Below are positions 10,682-17,266 of a stretch of DNA of 57,767 nucleotides, piece after piece; position 1 is the first letter of the stretch, and each line of letters begins with the position of its first letter. The notes beneath the pieces are model-generated. The model saw nothing but the letters and a program-made list of their open reading frames with translations. It was not told the origin of the DNA and searched no databases. The DNA lies in assembly GCA_027486835.1 (NCBI GenBank), contig JAIXOJ010000064.1, positions 1 to 57,767 on the forward strand. The letters are read 5' to 3'. A program made the translations under genes and the position numbers. The DNA comes from Chitinophagaceae bacterium. Lineage in GTDB: Bacteria; Bacteroidota; Bacteroidia; Chitinophagales; Chitinophagaceae.

Positions 10682-11272
10682 TTATTTGCGTTTGTTGATT
10701 TCATCTCTAATGGCGATAGCACGAATGTAGTCTTCGCTTTCTAATACATCATTGAGTAGCTTTTCTAATTCAGGTACGCTTAGTCCGCTTAAATCATTTC
10801 TTGCATCTAGATTAGTAGATTCTGCCCCAACTGCTTCAGTTTTTCTTGCATCAGGGCCATTACCTTCTATTACTACACCTGCATTATCTAGTATATGGTC
10901 ATAAGTGAAAATTGGGCAGGAAAAACGCACTGCTAGGGCAAGTGCATCACTTGTTCTGCTGTCAATCTCCACGGTATCTTCTTCGGTGTAACAAATCAAC
11001 TTAGAGAAGAAGATTCCTTCCTGTAAGTCAGTAATGACTATTTCCTGAAGATCTACATTAAAGGCATTCATAAAGTTTTTCATCAAATCGTGCGTTAATG
11101 GTCTGCTTGGTGCCATCCTTTCGAGTGCAACTGCAATAGCTTGTGCTTCAAAACCTCCAATAACAATCGGTAATCGCCTCAATCCGTTTACTTCCCCTAA
11201 CACCACTGCATAAGAATGTGTTTGTGTAATACTATGGGATAATGCAACAATTTCTAACTCTATTTTCTTCAT
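10682..11272 (-). CDS. Bifunctional nuclease family protein (DUF151) with UvrB/UvrC motif
   Basis: 196 residues. The DUF151 domain (about 1-135) has the family features LPIVIGGFEAQAIA, RPLTHDLM, IDSRTSDALALAVR and CPIFTYD. A C-terminal UvrB/C-type helical hairpin (about 158-196) ends DYIRAIAIRDEINKRK. The plant and bacterial family has been reported to have DNase and RNase activity, but its role in Bacteroidota is unclear. It is the first gene of the minus-strand run that continues with ispE and the acyltransferase. The 283-bp region upstream (11273-11556) is shared with the divergent ATP-grasp-like gene. Confidence 0.88.
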   Translation of the reverse strand: MKKIELEIVALSHSITQTHSYAVVLGEVNGLRRLPIVIGGFEAQAIAVALERMAPSRPLTHDLMKNFMNAFNVDLQEIVITDLQEGIFFSKLICYTEEDTVEIDSRTSDALALAVRFSCPIFTYDHILDNAGVVIEGNGPDARKTEAVGAESTNLDARNDLSGLSVPELEKLLNDVLESEDYIRAIAIRDEINKRK

Positions 11273-11565: not shown

Positions 11566-12762
11566 ATGGTAACAGAATTGAGGCAATGGTTTAATAGCCA
11601 TTTTACTAAAGAAAAATACGAGGCTTATTTAGCCGAATTAAATAGTCAACACGAGGGTGCTATCGTTTTTAGGGTGGCGGAAACCCCAATTTTTATGGAC
11701 AAGGCATTTACCCACAAAATAATCGCTGCTTGCGAAAGTATTGTGGATGTAATTGTGCAACCCAATTTCGGTGCGATTACCAAAAATGCTGTTCCAGAGG
11801 AATTCCGTCTGCCAAATAATAGCCAATACTCCGATTTTATTGCTTTTGATTTTGGTATTTGTGAAAATGAAAAAGGGGAATTGGAACCTCAATTGATAGA
11901 AATGCAGGGATTTCCCACCCTATTTGCTTATCAAATTTGGCACGACGAAATCACTAGAAAACATTTCAACATTCCTGATAACTACTCTGCTTATCTCAAT
12001 GGGTTTAACAAGGATAGCTATACAGCATTGCTTAAAAAAATCATTGTGGGGGATGCAAATATTGAAGAAGTGGTATTGCTAGAAATATTTCCTGAACAGC
12101 AAAAAACAAGAATTGATTTCTTTAATACTGAGGATTATATCGGTGTAAAATCTGTTTGTTTGACTAACCTAATTAAAGAAGGAAATCAATTGTACTATCT
12201 GAACTACGGAGTAAAGACGTTGATAAAGAGAATTTACAACAGAATCATCTTTGAAGAATTGCAACAGCAAACCCCAGAAGTACAGGCTTTTGGAAAAATA
12301 TTGTTTGAGGATTTAGATGTGGAGTGGGTGCCGCATCCTAAATGGTTTTATAAAATTAGTAAATACACCCTACCATTTCTGAATCATCCGTACATCCCCA
12401 AAACGACTTTCTTGGATGAGATTTCTGTGATTCCTGCCGATTTGGAAAATTATGTACTCAAACCGCTTTTCTCATTTGCGGGACAAGGAGTAATCATAGA
12501 CGTTACAGAAGAAGATATTACTGCCATAAAAGATCCACACAACTGGATTTTGCAACGTAAAGTGAAATATGCAGATGTTATTCAAACACCGGATGGTTTT
12601 GCTAAAGCAGAAGTAAGAATTTTTTATTTCTGGGAAAAAGGAGCAGCCCGACCAGTGGCTACCAACAACCTTGCTCGATTGAGTAAGGGTAAAATGATTG
12701 GGGTTAGATACAATATGGACAAAGAATGGGTGGGTGGCACTCTCGCTTATTTTGAACAATAA
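11566..12762 (+). CDS. Conserved hypothetical, ATP-grasp-like C-terminal half
   Basis: 398 residues from ATG 11566; a TTG at 11557 would add three residues only. I do not recognise a named family. The N-terminal half has LEPQLIEMQGFPTLFAYQ. The C-terminal third reads YVLKPLFSFAGQGVIIDV, then WILQRKVKYADVI, then KAEVRIFYFW and PVATNNLARLSKG, which resembles the nucleotide-binding lysine, adenine-contact and metal-binding parts of ATP-grasp or glutathionylspermidine-synthase-like ligases. If so it would join a carboxylate to an amine using ATP. It has no signal peptide and no membrane segment. A TATTTTCG element at 11535-11542 may be its -7 box. It is followed at 149 bp by a GalU-like gene and then the kinase-pyrophosphorylase fusion, which hints at a shared pathway. 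Function unproven. Confidence 0.55.
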   Translation: MVTELRQWFNSHFTKEKYEAYLAELNSQHEGAIVFRVAETPIFMDKAFTHKIIAACESIVDVIVQPNFGAITKNAVPEEFRLPNNSQYSDFIAFDFGICENEKGELEPQLIEMQGFPTLFAYQIWHDEITRKHFNIPDNYSAYLNGFNKDSYTALLKKIIVGDANIEEVVLLEIFPEQQKTRIDFFNTEDYIGVKSVCLTNLIKEGNQLYYLNYGVKTLIKRIYNRIIFEELQQQTPEVQAFGKILFEDLDVEWVPHPKWFYKISKYTLPFLNHPYIPKTTFLDEISVIPADLENYVLKPLFSFAGQGVIIDVTEEDITAIKDPHNWILQRKVKYADVIQTPDGFAKAEVRIFYFWEKGAARPVATNNLARLSKGKMIGVRYNMDKEWVGGTLAYFEQ

Positions 12763-12911
12763 TCCCTCTACACAAATAGCCTTTTATTTCAAAATGATTT
12801 TCATCGCTTTGGAATAGAGGCTTTCTTTTTTTGAGCAATGCCCGCTCAAGGGCAACGTCATCATTTATTCATCAACTTTTATTTCCCTTTTATTATTTTA
12901 GAATTTAGCGT

Positions 12912-13856
12912 ATGAAAATTAGGAAAGCGGTAATTACTGCTGCTGCAAGAGGAGAACGATTATACCCAGTGGCGGATACGGTACAAAAAGCCATGTTGCC
13001 CGTGATGGACATAGACGGACTTTACAAACCAGTGATTCAAATTATTGCCGAAGAAGCTTTTGATAGCGGCATAGAAGAAATTGCGGTTGTTTGTGCGCCA
13101 GGTGATAGTGAACGTTACACCGTTGCTTTTGCTTCGCTTCGTGATAATTTGGCTAAGTCTTACAGTCATGTTGATTGGGCAACCAATCAAGCAGATAAAA
13201 TCACACACTTACTCGCCCAAGTTACATTTATTGAGCAAACTGAACCATTGGGGTATGGCCATGCCGTTTTATCTGCCGAATCCTTTGTAAATAATGAATC
13301 GTTTTTACTGCTTTTGGGCGATTATATTTATGTGTCACAATATCCGAACAGGCGTTGTGCCGCACAGCTCATAGAAATTGCACAACAGGAGAATTGTTCT
13401 GTGTCTGCCGTAAATCCTACCATTGAACACCAAATTACCAGATATGGCACTTTAACGGGTAAACAATTACCACATGAAGCCAATCTTTACCAGATAGAAA
13501 AAATCATTGAGAAGCCGTCTTTAAGCGTGGCTGAATTGGAATTACAAACACCAGGACTTCGCATTGGCTACTATCTCTGCTTTTTTGGAATGCACGTACT
13601 TACTGCCAATGTATTTGATTTACTCAAACAGCAATTTGCGGAAAAAGCCTTTCCTATAAGACTAACTCCAGCTTTGGAACAATTAGCCCAGAAAGAAAAA
13701 TATTTAGCCATAGAAATGAAAGGTTCACGCTACGATTTGAGTAGAAAACATGGTTTATTAAGGGCTCAAGTGGCGCTGGGTTTGGCAGGACAGGGTAAGA
13801 CCGAAACCCTCAGCACCCTTGTGGAATTGATGGCAGAAGCTGGAAGTCGTAATTAA
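12912..13856 (+). CDS. GalU-like sugar-phosphate nucleotidyltransferase
   Basis: 314 residues, cytosolic. The N-terminus KAVITAAARGERLYPVAD is a variant of the pyrophosphorylase signature (usually AAGxGTRxxP), followed by QKAMLPVMDIDGLYKP, which keeps the catalytic lysine, and IQIIAEEAFDSGIEEI. LLGDYIY holds the metal-binding Asp, and GYYLCFFGMHVL is the usual strand near the end. The enzyme would make an NDP-sugar, most simply UDP-glucose from UTP and glucose-1-phosphate. The altered glycine loop (AARGERL) and the interruption IDGLYKP are unusual. It lies between the ATP-grasp-like gene and the large kinase-pyrophosphorylase gene (77 bp before the latter). The substrate is inferred only from family. 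Confidence 0.78.
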   Translation: MKIRKAVITAAARGERLYPVADTVQKAMLPVMDIDGLYKPVIQIIAEEAFDSGIEEIAVVCAPGDSERYTVAFASLRDNLAKSYSHVDWATNQADKITHLLAQVTFIEQTEPLGYGHAVLSAESFVNNESFLLLLGDYIYVSQYPNRRCAAQLIEIAQQENCSVSAVNPTIEHQITRYGTLTGKQLPHEANLYQIEKIIEKPSLSVAELELQTPGLRIGYYLCFFGMHVLTANVFDLLKQQFAEKAFPIRLTPALEQLAQKEKYLAIEMKGSRYDLSRKHGLLRAQVALGLAGQGKTETLSTLVELMAEAGSRN

Positions 13857-13933
13857 TTTTTACTGCTTAATATAATTCAGATTTGGTTGCTGTTAACACC
13901 CTGTATTTTCCCTAATCATTTTCATCATTGACC

Positions 13934-16900
13934 ATGAATATATTTATTGAAACCATCGTTTCAAAAGATGCCCATTTACGTAATCGTTCCTTTTTTAAGC
14001 TAGCCAAGCAATTTGATGCGCCAGATTTATTGGGGGCTTTAGATGAATTAGAAGCTTTTAGAAAAGAAACACCCAGCTTGTACGACAAAGTGCGGGCTAT
14101 TCTTTTTCTGTATGCTGGTTACCGATATTTTTTAGCAGACAGTACTGCTATCCCCCAAGCTGGGACGATTGATTATAAAGGTTTTGAAGACCTGTTAGGT
14201 AGAAGATTTGAAAACGCCATTAGTGTATTTAGGCAGTCCATTCAACAAGATGGGGCCAATGCCAGCGTATTGAGTGCTTTGGCGGATAGTTACCATCATC
14301 TTTCCTTTCAAATTCTTGCTGATCAGGTAAGAAAGAGTGTTAGAAGCAGTCGGGGTAATCAATGGATGTTTCGCGTAAGTCATAGAATGGAACATGCCAT
14401 TAAAATTCATCCAACCTTATTGGTAAAACAATCCGATTCTTTGTTTTATCCCTTGTTGCATGAAAAAACATCTGTGCGGATGGATTTAACCCACAGTGGA
14501 TGGTCGGACATTTTCTTTTTAGGCATGGACTATCCCGAAGGTGCAAGGGTGATTAATTTATCCATCGATTTAGGTGTTTTTGGTAGGGATAAGGATATTA
14601 GACCGCCATTAAACAGCTATGTAAGGGTAATTACTGAACCTGTTATTCGGATTACCAGCATTGATTTGAACACTTGCAAGGACATTACAGATTTGGACGA
14701 CTTGTTCAATTTTGGCAATGATTACCTCAGTTTAATTAAGGCAGGTATTATTGCCTCCGGATTAATCCCACCATCTTTTGAAGGAACACATCAATCATTA
14801 CCTGAAATACTCGAAAAAATAGTAGCACCAGGTATGGGTATTGAATTGGTAACCAAAGTGAACGACATTCCTAAGGGTTCTCGGTTTGCAGTATCTACCA
14901 ATCTCTTAGGTTCTATCATTAGTGTGTTGATGCGTGCATCTTGCCAAACCAAAAACTTAGTAGGCCCATTAGAGGAATATGAAAGAAGATTGGTGGCATC
15001 AAGGGCTATTCTTGGTGAATGGATTGGTGGTTCTGGTGGAGGTTGGCAAGATTCGGGCGGCGTTTGGCCGGGTATCAAAGCCATTGAGGGTACTTTGGCA
15101 CAGCAAGGAGATCCAGAATTTGGCATAAGTAGGGGTACTTTATTGCCACAGCACACTGTTTTTGGCGGCAATGCCATTCATCCAGAAATGGAAGATAAAA
15201 TCATGCGTTCATTGGTTTTAATGCACGGGGGTATGGCTTCAAATGTGGGGCCAGTACTAGAAATGGTGACAGAAAAATACTTGCTTAGAGGCGAACAAGA
15301 ATGGGCTGCAAGACAACATACTAACCAGATTTATGAGGATATAAAAGACGCCATTAAAACTGGCGACATCAAAAAATTGGGGCAAAGCACCGAGAAGAAT
15401 TTCTACGAAGCCATCAAGCACATCATTCCATTTGCCACTACTTTTTTTACGGAACAAATTATTGCCAAAGCAAAAGCTGCATTTGGCGAGGACTATTATG
15501 GGTTTTTGATGCTGGGCGGGATGTCTGGTGGCGGGATGGGCATGTTTGTAAACCCCGATCATTATGATACCTACAAGGTGAAAGTGCTGGAAATTATTCA
15601 AGAAACCCAGAAGGAATTATCCGATGCCCTGCCATTTGCTGTAGCACCAGTGGTGTATAATTGGCATATCAATCACAAAGGCACTACTGCTACTATCCAT
15701 CATGGCAACGAAGCATTGATGCCCGACAGTTATTATGGCATTCATGTATCGGAATTGGTAAAGAAAACGGCAAGTACTATTCCTTATCTGCGTAGGGCTG
15801 AAATTGATTATTTCACCACTTATACCCATAATAACAACAGTGCCTATCCCCTATTGCGCACCATTGTAAGCAATCTCTTTAAAGTGTCGGATCCATCTGT
15901 TCAGGGTAATAGAAGCTTGGAAGATGATAAAGCCGATGCTATTAAAAAGGCAAATGGTTTTGATTATATTCAGCATGAAGACATCCGAGCAGATTTACTC
16001 AAAGGCAGAATTGGTTTGTCACGCAATCGCCTGCCAGCAGAAACATTGGTGGAGGATGCTCCTTTGAACTTATTGGGCAATTATGCCGACACCTCAGCCT
16101 ACCATTCTATAGGTGCTGCCGCCATAAAAAATGGAACGGTGGCCGTATTATCGCTTGCGGCAGGGGTTGGTAGTAGGTGGACGAAAGGGGCAGGTGTGAT
16201 TAAAGCCATCAATCCTTTCGTGGAAATGGAAGGCAAACACCGTAGCTTTTTAGAAATACATTTTGCCAAAACAAAAAGAGTGGCTGCCGAATATGGCGTG
16301 AACATTCCCCATATAGTTGCCACCAGTTACTTGACCCATCAATCAATTGAAAAAAGGCTGAACGCTTCCAATCAATATGGCTATGGGGGGAGTGCTTATT
16401 TATCATCAGGAAGATCTATTGGTCAACGTTTTGTTCCTACAGAGCGTGATCTTAGGTTTTTATGGGAGGAAATGCCCCAAGAAACCCTGGATGAAAACAA
16501 ACAGAAAGTAAGAGAGGCCGTGCGAAACAGCCTGATTAATTGGGCGAAAACCAAGGGAGAGGCGGCTGATTACGTGGATAATATTGCCGCGCAAAGATTT
16601 TCGCCGCTGGGGCATTGGTATGAAGTGTCTAACTTGATTAGGAATGGAGTGTTGGCCAAACTGCTGAAAGAAAATCCCTCACTGGAAACCATCATGTTGC
16701 ATAACATAGATACTTTGGGTGCAGATGTGGATCCTATTCCGTTGGGCTATCATTTGAGTAAAAACAATGCCCTTTCTTTTGAGGTAATTGCCCGTAGGAT
16801 TGAAGACAGGGGCGGCGGATTGGCATTGGTAAATGGTCGTTTGCGCATGTTGGAAGGATTGGCGCAGCCCCACGAAGAAGATGAATTGAAATTGAGCTAT

Positions 16901-17266
16901 TACAGTTCTAACACCACTTGGATTCAGATAGATCCTTTGCTTCAATTGCTTGGCCTCACTAGAGCACAGTTGCAAACGGCAGATGATGCCGAATTGGCAA
17001 AAGCGGTGCGGAAGCTGGCGCAAAGAATGCCCACCTATGTTACCATCAAAGACGTGAAATACCGTTGGGGACATGGTCAGGAAGATATTTATCCCGTGGC
17101 TCAAATAGAAAAATTATGGACAGACATGACGGCATTGCCTGATATTCAATGTGGGTATATGGTGGTGCCTAGAATAAGAGGTCAACAGTTGAAAGGGCCT
17201 GAACAATTGGATGCATGGATGACCGATGGCAGCTATGAAGCCATTGCAAAACTGTGTAAGTTCTAG
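13934..17266 (+). CDS. Fusion of a GHMP sugar kinase and a UDPGP-type pyrophosphorylase
   Basis: 1,110 residues from ATG 13934 (a TTG at 13928 adds two). An N-terminal part of about 170 residues is not recognised. A GHMP kinase follows: RMDLTHSGWSD near 182, the ATP loop-like NDIPKGSRFAVSTNLLGS near 310-327, GGSGGGWQDSGG near 365 and the C-terminal GHMP motif LGGMSGGGMGMF near 525. These are closest in pattern to L-fucokinase-type kinases. A UDPGP-family domain occupies about 730-1100: LSLAAGVGSRWTKG near 738, HRSFLEIHF near 768, NIDTLGADVDP near 922 and VNGRLRMLEG near 965. The protein could turn a free sugar into a sugar-1-phosphate and then into a UDP-sugar. The order is opposite to the fucokinase/GDP-fucose pyrophosphorylase FKP. 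A strong hairpin terminator follows. Substrate unknown. Confidence 0.75.
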   Translation: MNIFIETIVSKDAHLRNRSFFKLAKQFDAPDLLGALDELEAFRKETPSLYDKVRAILFLYAGYRYFLADSTAIPQAGTIDYKGFEDLLGRRFENAISVFRQSIQQDGANASVLSALADSYHHLSFQILADQVRKSVRSSRGNQWMFRVSHRMEHAIKIHPTLLVKQSDSLFYPLLHEKTSVRMDLTHSGWSDIFFLGMDYPEGARVINLSIDLGVFGRDKDIRPPLNSYVRVITEPVIRITSIDLNTCKDITDLDDLFNFGNDYLSLIKAGIIASGLIPPSFEGTHQSLPEILEKIVAPGMGIELVTKVNDIPKGSRFAVSTNLLGSIISVLMRASCQTKNLVGPLEEYERRLVASRAILGEWIGGSGGGWQDSGGVWPGIKAIEGTLAQQGDPEFGISRGTLLPQHTVFGGNAIHPEMEDKIMRSLVLMHGGMASNVGPVLEMVTEKYLLRGEQEWAARQHTNQIYEDIKDAIKTGDIKKLGQSTEKNFYEAIKHIIPFATTFFTEQIIAKAKAAFGEDYYGFLMLGGMSGGGMGMFVNPDHYDTYKVKVLEIIQETQKELSDALPFAVAPVVYNWHINHKGTTATIHHGNEALMPDSYYGIHVSELVKKTASTIPYLRRAEIDYFTTYTHNNNSAYPLLRTIVSNLFKVSDPSVQGNRSLEDDKADAIKKANGFDYIQHEDIRADLLKGRIGLSRNRLPAETLVEDAPLNLLGNYADTSAYHSIGAAAIKNGTVAVLSLAAGVGSRWTKGAGVIKAINPFVEMEGKHRSFLEIHFAKTKRVAAEYGVNIPHIVATSYLTHQSIEKRLNASNQYGYGGSAYLSSGRSIGQRFVPTERDLRFLWEEMPQETLDENKQKVREAVRNSLINWAKTKGEAADYVDNIAAQRFSPLGHWYEVSNLIRNGVLAKLLKENPSLETIMLHNIDTLGADVDPIPLGYHLSKNNALSFEVIARRIEDRGGGLALVNGRLRMLEGLAQPHEEDELKLSYYSSNTTWIQIDPLLQLLGLTRAQLQTADDAELAKAVRKLAQRMPTYVTIKDVKYRWGHGQEDIYPVAQIEKLWTDMTALPDIQCGYMVVPRIRGQQLKGPEQLDAWMTDGSYEAIAKLCKF

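Follow-up and report, generated by a model that had tools for sequence, protein, structure and literature searches.

The L-fucokinase/GDP-fucose pyrophosphorylase of Bacteroides fragilis, FKP, is described as one protein that combines a GHMP sugar-1-kinase with a nucleotide-sugar pyrophosphorylase. R592, W599, D601, E751, Q761 and D762 are given as catalytic or sugar-contacting residues of the kinase, S719 is proposed to be a metal ligand, and the phosphates of ATP are proposed to be held by a glycine-rich loop (PMC11982464). A zebrafish glucuronokinase/putative UDP-glucuronate pyrophosphorylase is likewise described as one chain that converts a free sugar into a UDP-sugar by way of a GHMP kinase (PMC3938481). 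YngB is reported to be an active UDP-glucose pyrophosphorylase, in which D133 contacts Mg, E191 the sugar, K192 the diphosphate, Q105, G110, G14 and E29 the uridine, and D134 the glucose (PMC7961091). Finally, GMPPA, a paralogue of GMPPB without catalytic activity, is described as binding GDP-mannose and inhibiting GMPPB (PMC11228364).

We analysed a stretch of 57,767 nucleotides from a Chitinophagaceae bacterium (contig JAIXOJ010000064.1), referred to below as the window. An earlier note on this DNA had singled out three adjacent genes on the plus strand, and all three open reading frames are present at the places it gave (Table 1). We call them A, G and F; A ends 149 bases before G. The length of 1,110 residues claimed for F corresponds to a start at the in-frame ATG. 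G and F contain pyrophosphorylase domains of two families, GalU-like and UDPGP, which lie within one large superfamily.

Table 1. Features of the A, G and F region, in positions of the window.
Feature	Position	Strand	Basis and remarks
Gene A	11557/11566-12762	+	Open reading frame; ATP-grasp-like label weakly based
G, GalU-like nucleotidyltransferase-family protein, 314 aa, partner of F	12912..13856	+	PF00483, YngB match, pairing
G residues 10-30, nucleotide/catalytic segment (A11, A12, R16, K26)	12939..13001	+	Alignment to YngB; present in the window
F, kinase-pyrophosphorylase fusion	13928/13934-17266	+	1112 aa from TTG, 1110 aa from in-frame ATG at 13934
F residues 1-175, conserved, mostly helical N-terminal region	13928..14452	+	Helices of the AlphaFold2 model
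F residues about 176-600, fucokinase-type GHMP domain	14453..15727	+	NF009948, 9iip; domain end approximate
F residues 317-324 (GSRFAVST), altered GHMP phosphate-binding loop	14876..14899	+	Alignment to 9iip
F residues about 735-1112, UDPGP-type pyrophosphorylase	16130..17263	+	PF01704, UGP chains, Foldseek; domain start approximate

Sequence and structure comparison agree with the earlier description of F as a fusion of a GHMP kinase and a UDPGP-type pyrophosphorylase, and place a helical region in front of the two. NF009948 matches residues 180-555 (E 4e-20), which covers only positions 613-948 of the 974 in that model, and PF01704 matches residues 888-1016 (E 1.3e-12; 47.7 bits against a cut-off of 22). 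An AlphaFold2 model of F, calculated from 62 sequences, has a mean pLDDT of 88.3 and a pTM of 0.88. In a Foldseek search with this model, FKP came first (9iit, 9iip), followed by UDP-GlcNAc and UDP-glucose pyrophosphorylases. The match to the kinase part of FKP (9iip) has a TM score of 0.83 by target length, so the GHMP fold, whose absence from a structure prediction the earlier note had named as a refutation, is supported. The N-terminal region contains a conserved stretch around residues 128-149 and has no family match beyond a weak hint of a TPR protein (NF007692, E 0.05).

A scan of public genomes gave at least 588 stretches encoding F, and we retained the 80 best; with one further genome, they make up the 81 F loci compared here with the window. 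Going by record titles, the best 80 comprise 37 loci from Bacteroidota, 16 from Verrucomicrobiota, eight from Hydrogenedentota, four from Planctomycetota, three each from Acidobacteriota and Chloroflexota, two from Armatimonadota, one each from Actinomycetota, Fibrobacterota, Ignavibacteriota and Pseudomonadota, and three without a label; many are metagenome bins, and the phylum labels that rest on a single locus are doubtful. Seven phyla thus have at least two F loci each among the best 80 of at least 588. The 61 relatives that were aligned are 75% down to 51% identical to the window F.

G directly precedes F, in the same orientation, at 77 of the 81 loci (77 of 79 if only loci with room upstream are counted). 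This count combines 75 loci found by an automatic test with two (L047, L055) assigned by inspection, where the F reading frames had been called too long, and at several of the 77 only part of G is visible before the contig edge. We also considered the long reading frames at L055 and L047 as natural G-F fusions and rejected this: they are out-of-frame upstream extensions, and G is a separate gene at both. The four loci without G are L022 and L025, which run into a contig edge, L071, where the 982 bases available upstream contain no G, and L063 (Armatimonadetes), with no G within 10 kb upstream of F. The L063 genome has a distant GalU-like gene on another stretch (L118:3505-4419), 36% identical to G and with the lysine segment discussed below. 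At loci of the window's phylum taken later, G precedes F in six of six, one of them being the same locus as L002. The distance between G and F ranges from a short overlap to about 230 bases.

Because this order recurs in several phyla at F identities of 51-75%, it is more than a chance arrangement. Clustering of the genes around the F loci gave no third recurrent gene beyond close relatives. The neighbourhood comparison across genomes that had been suggested for all three genes therefore has a divided outcome: the G-F pair is conserved, and the three-gene set is not, as no homologue of A was found in the available flanks of the 81 other F loci. The conserved unit is the pair. Neither the F fusion nor the G-F pair is the subject of any paper that we found among the open-access papers searched, and we found no named pathway for the set there, as the earlier note had supposed.

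None of the neighbouring genes names the sugar: clustering within 6.5 kb, and inspection of genes on the same strand up to 200 bases away, yielded neighbours that were either mixed or confined to single lineages. In Larkinella (L010, L011, L013, L017, L033) an enolase-like gene lies upstream in five loci and a phosphoglycerate mutase-like gene downstream in four, and in Akkermansiaceae-type loci (L061, L066, L068, L072) a phosphoglycerate kinase-like gene lies near the pair; these genes were named by eye. On a plasmid of Hymenobacter volaticus (L083:15001-18327), F is frameshifted, with matches in three frames and no listed gene, and the G beside it is a listed gene that matches in one piece. 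One locus titled Williamsia (L024, Actinomycetota) carries a Bacteroidota-like pair and is perhaps a mis-binned contig.

G had been called a divergent nucleotidyltransferase, with the motif AARGERL, and both points are borne out: the motif is there, PF00483 matches with E 8.8e-18, and the TIGR01099 galU model gives 152.6 bits, far below its cut-off of 326.8. The window genome has a separate GalU that exceeds this cut-off with 369.3 bits, and G is thus not the ordinary GalU of this genome. Its nearest relative of known structure is YngB (E 3.3e-35, residues 2-294 of 314; the numbering of the YngB paper is the chain index plus one). We compared 73 G sequences, that is, the window G and 72 matches spanning more than 270 residues, shorter pieces at contig edges being dropped. 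D133, E191, K192, Q105 and G110 of YngB correspond to D137, E200, K201, Q109 and G114 of G, which are invariant in all 73. The glucose contact D134 is replaced throughout, by histidine in 40 sequences and tyrosine in 33. In the window G, the uridine contacts G14 and E29 of YngB are A12 and A27, and the nucleotide-binding K28 of YngB is present as K26. The window G keeps G14, R16, K26, D137, E200, K201 and D275; in this family GxGxR belongs to the nucleotide/catalytic segment.

In 20 of the 73 sequences, all from one clade, residues 23-30 including K26 are missing. In each of these loop-less proteins, G14 or R16 of GxGxR is missing as well, and so are about 24 residues further on (73-96); one of the comparisons behind this covered 29 G rows. 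Position 275 is asparagine or proline in nine of the 20, and asparagine in five of the other 53. Where the segment is present, the lysine is found in 52 of 53 rows, with arginine in the remaining one. Four more genomes of the window's phylum encode a G without the same segment and with GxGxR kept. On a tree of 62 F sequences, calculated by a quick method without bootstrap, eight have no G label, and the labelled rows (20 without the segment, 34 with it) place the loss as a single change, on a branch with an SH-aLRT value of 100. The window F falls among Bacteroidota sequences, and L063 and L071, two of the loci without G, both fall in the loop-less branch.

The pairing of G with F persists where the lysine segment is missing. 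Given that the segment was lost once, with the pairing and the other binding residues retained, normal catalysis by G looks dispensable in the loop-less clade, and a G of this type, judged by its residues, can hardly be a normal pyrophosphorylase. The G of the window's clade has the segment and may be an active transferase. Its lysine speaks against taking G as regulatory in the window genome, whereas A12 and A27, at two uridine contacts of YngB, point the other way.

These observations bear on the strongest alternative, which is that G and F are two active pyrophosphorylases, working in series or on two sugars, F activating one sugar and G supplying the same glycan with UDP-glucose or a second UDP-sugar. 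The retained residues of the window G would fit such an activity, as does the reported activity of YngB (PMC7961091). Moreover, a GalU above the family cut-off was found in only two of 12 F-bearing genomes, which weighs against a simple sensor role of G, as the pair might supply UDP-glucose in some of the other ten; the cut-off is a strict one, passed by five of 14 control genomes, and the count covers GalU matches in the genomes of 12 loci only. Against it stand the loss of the lysine segment in 20 of 73 G and in four further genomes with the pairing kept, the histidine or tyrosine at the glucose contact in all 73, and the separate GalU that the window genome already has. On balance we consider two active pyrophosphorylases an unlikely explanation. 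We return to G as a partner of F after considering the active sites of F.

Residue conservation in F was counted over an alignment of 62 of the 82 F sequences, and the chain of 9iip is offset by 530 from the FKP numbering. The FKP residues R592, W599, D601, E751, Q761 and D762 correspond to R184, W192, D194, E364, Q374 and D375 of F, and S719 and S720 to S323 and T324; all eight are invariant in the 62 sequences. A further sugar contact of FKP, T602, is I195 in F. The ATP loop is changed: GSGLGTSS of FKP (G713-S720) becomes GSR[LF]AVST, uniform in all 62 except for the L/F position: G317, S318, R319, A321, V322, S323 and T324 are invariant, with R319 and V322 in place of G715 and T718. In the pyrophosphorylase domain, K759, G895-H896, N926, D928 and K1089 are invariant in the 62 sequences, the GH and N-x-D motifs having been read against UGP chains. 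The loop lysine and the VPRxRxxxxK motif of the UDPGP family are present as well. F has YYSSNTTW in place of the UGP signature FNTNNLW, and its sugar therefore need not be glucose-like.

With its changed ATP loop, the kinase of F could be altered or dead. A second alternative takes this further: the GHMP domain would not be an ATP-dependent kinase, and would instead bind a sugar or sugar phosphate or use another phosphate donor, with the UDPGP domain receiving sugar-1-phosphate from elsewhere or running in reverse. In favour of it, the fixed R[LF]AVST sequence occupies the site that in FKP is proposed to bind the phosphates of ATP (PMC11982464). However, F retains the serine proposed as metal ligand, the catalytic base D375, R184 and E364, none of which varies, and this makes a non-kinase role of the domain quite improbable. 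Since the other residues needed are retained, the kinase of F is probably re-made yet working.

The matches of A to known families are weak. PF14305 (E 0.032) remains below its cut-off, a profile search relates A to YgiC at E 0.032, and PF03738 (GSP_synth) is found at E up to 0.1 in ten of 30 members of the homologue alignment, with a best E of 3.7e-4. AlphaFold2 on A alone gave a mean pLDDT of 30. From these family matches, A is likely an ATP-grasp protein. Around the 81 other F loci, where the DNA compared reached at most 10 kb on each side and at some loci far less, no homologue of A was found; seven longer stretches, six of them with F, had none either. In one sample of 296 genomes from the window's phylum, A is present in 92 and full-length F in seven, and 90 of the 92 genomes with A have no F. 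The two that have both are the window genome and G004, where A and F share a contig, at 4.77 and 1.40 Mb, and are thus about 3.4 Mb apart. The count of seven refers to full-length F: eight genomes had some match, the only one in G293 being a 31% piece, which was excluded, whereas the genomes G072 and G308 each contain a full-length F and, in addition, a piece at 28% and 33%, respectively.

Homologues of A have recurrent neighbours of their own. Within 1.5 kb on either side of 29 such loci (L085-L113), a class-I glutamine-amidotransferase-like gene is linked to A in 18, and precedes it in the same orientation in 17 of these; a GCS2-family gene is linked to A in 15 (for example L099 and L103); one member of each family was named by Pfam. 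A homologues thus often lie 3' of GCS2 and glutamine-amidotransferase-like genes, in a separate recurrent ligase set. The GCS2 homologue of the window genome is on another contig, and no class-I amidotransferase was found in its 4-kb GCS2 locus or in the window. With no homologue found at the other F loci and other recurrent neighbours elsewhere, A probably belongs to a different gene set, from which it has strayed, and it is a chance neighbour of the G-F pair. The neighbourhood data refute the three genes as a conserved unit. That A precedes G by only 149 bases and in the same orientation in this single genome is outweighed by the lack of A homologues in the available flanks of 81 other F loci, the 90 of 92 A-bearing genomes without F and the GATase-like and GCS2 neighbours, and it is highly improbable that A conjugates a sugar activated by G and F.

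The distribution of F is patchy: it occurs in two of 60 genomes of the window's family and in seven of 296 of its phylum, the window genome being counted in both. The G+C content of G (0.416) and F (0.427) is higher than that of the window (0.380; 0.341-0.415 in 3.3-kb tiles). Patchiness and composition fit horizontal spread of the pair, without proving it. No relative of A or F was found on viral contigs. Promoter-like sites (26, against 22.4 with a standard deviation of 4.8 after shuffling) and terminator-like sites (nine, against 6.0 with a standard deviation of 2.6) are near the shuffled level, and a Bacteroidota-type promoter pattern has no match on the plus strand between positions 11000 and 18500.

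The reading that we favour, with somewhat less than even confidence, is that F converts a free sugar into a UDP-sugar and that G is a partner that binds a nucleotide sugar and tunes F, with a regulatory role at least in the loop-less clade. The GHMP domain of F would phosphorylate C1 of the free sugar, and the UDPGP-type domain would condense the sugar-1-phosphate with a nucleoside triphosphate to give the nucleotide sugar. UTP is the most likely donor, a guess from the family of the domain, and the product would then be a UDP-sugar. G, a nucleotidyltransferase-family subunit derived from a pyrophosphorylase, would bind this product or a related nucleotide sugar and act on F or with it, perhaps in physical contact, to tune its activity. 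The class of sugar can be guessed from the kinase pocket shared with FKP, which suggests an L-fucose-, L-galactose- or D-arabinose-like configuration. Of the pathway first proposed for this locus, two nucleotide-sugar-forming families beside a GHMP kinase, probably for activation of a free sugar, thus stand; the ligase as third member falls away.

If F and G work in this way, they would provide a further means, in addition to the salvage enzymes already known, of turning a free sugar into a nucleotide sugar. The pair is widespread and strongly conserved, and the Pfam and NCBIfam models used name it only by its domains. As partner versions with and without the lysine segment exist, a change from transferase to regulator can be assayed directly. 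A more far-reaching view would see here an undescribed two-protein sugar-activating enzyme, patchily distributed among seven or more phyla, in which a GalU-derived, non-catalytic protein senses the UDP-sugar made by a reversed-order F, whose kinase functions with a re-made ATP loop. It would be a bacterial counterpart of GMPPA-GMPPB, assembled from pyrophosphorylases of two distant families. We regard this view in its entirety as possible but rather doubtful.

FKP is the closest solved structure to F in the Foldseek search. F shares with it the fusion of a GHMP sugar-1-kinase to a nucleotide-sugar pyrophosphorylase, and keeps the catalytic and most sugar-contact residues of its kinase. The order of the two parts is reversed, however, with the kinase first in F (PMC11982464). 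F also differs in having a C-terminal pyrophosphorylase of UDPGP type, rather than an N-terminal one of FKP type with a β-helix domain, and in its extra helical N-terminus, its changed ATP loop and its near-constant GalU-like neighbour. The zebrafish enzyme resembles F in leading from free sugar to UDP-sugar through a GHMP kinase within one chain; by description only, it is an animal protein acting on glucuronate, with a pyrophosphorylase said to resemble bacterial nucleotidyltransferases (PMC3938481). G is homologous to GalU and YngB over nearly its whole length, but falls below the galU cut-off, has D134 replaced and has lost a segment in one clade. As a non-catalytic transferase-family protein serving an active pyrophosphorylase, GMPPA, as described, would be the nearest model for G, for which regulation is our inference (PMC11228364). 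GMPPA and GMPPB are described as close paralogues (PMC11228364), whereas the pyrophosphorylase of F belongs to another family, UDPGP, than G and is fused to a kinase.
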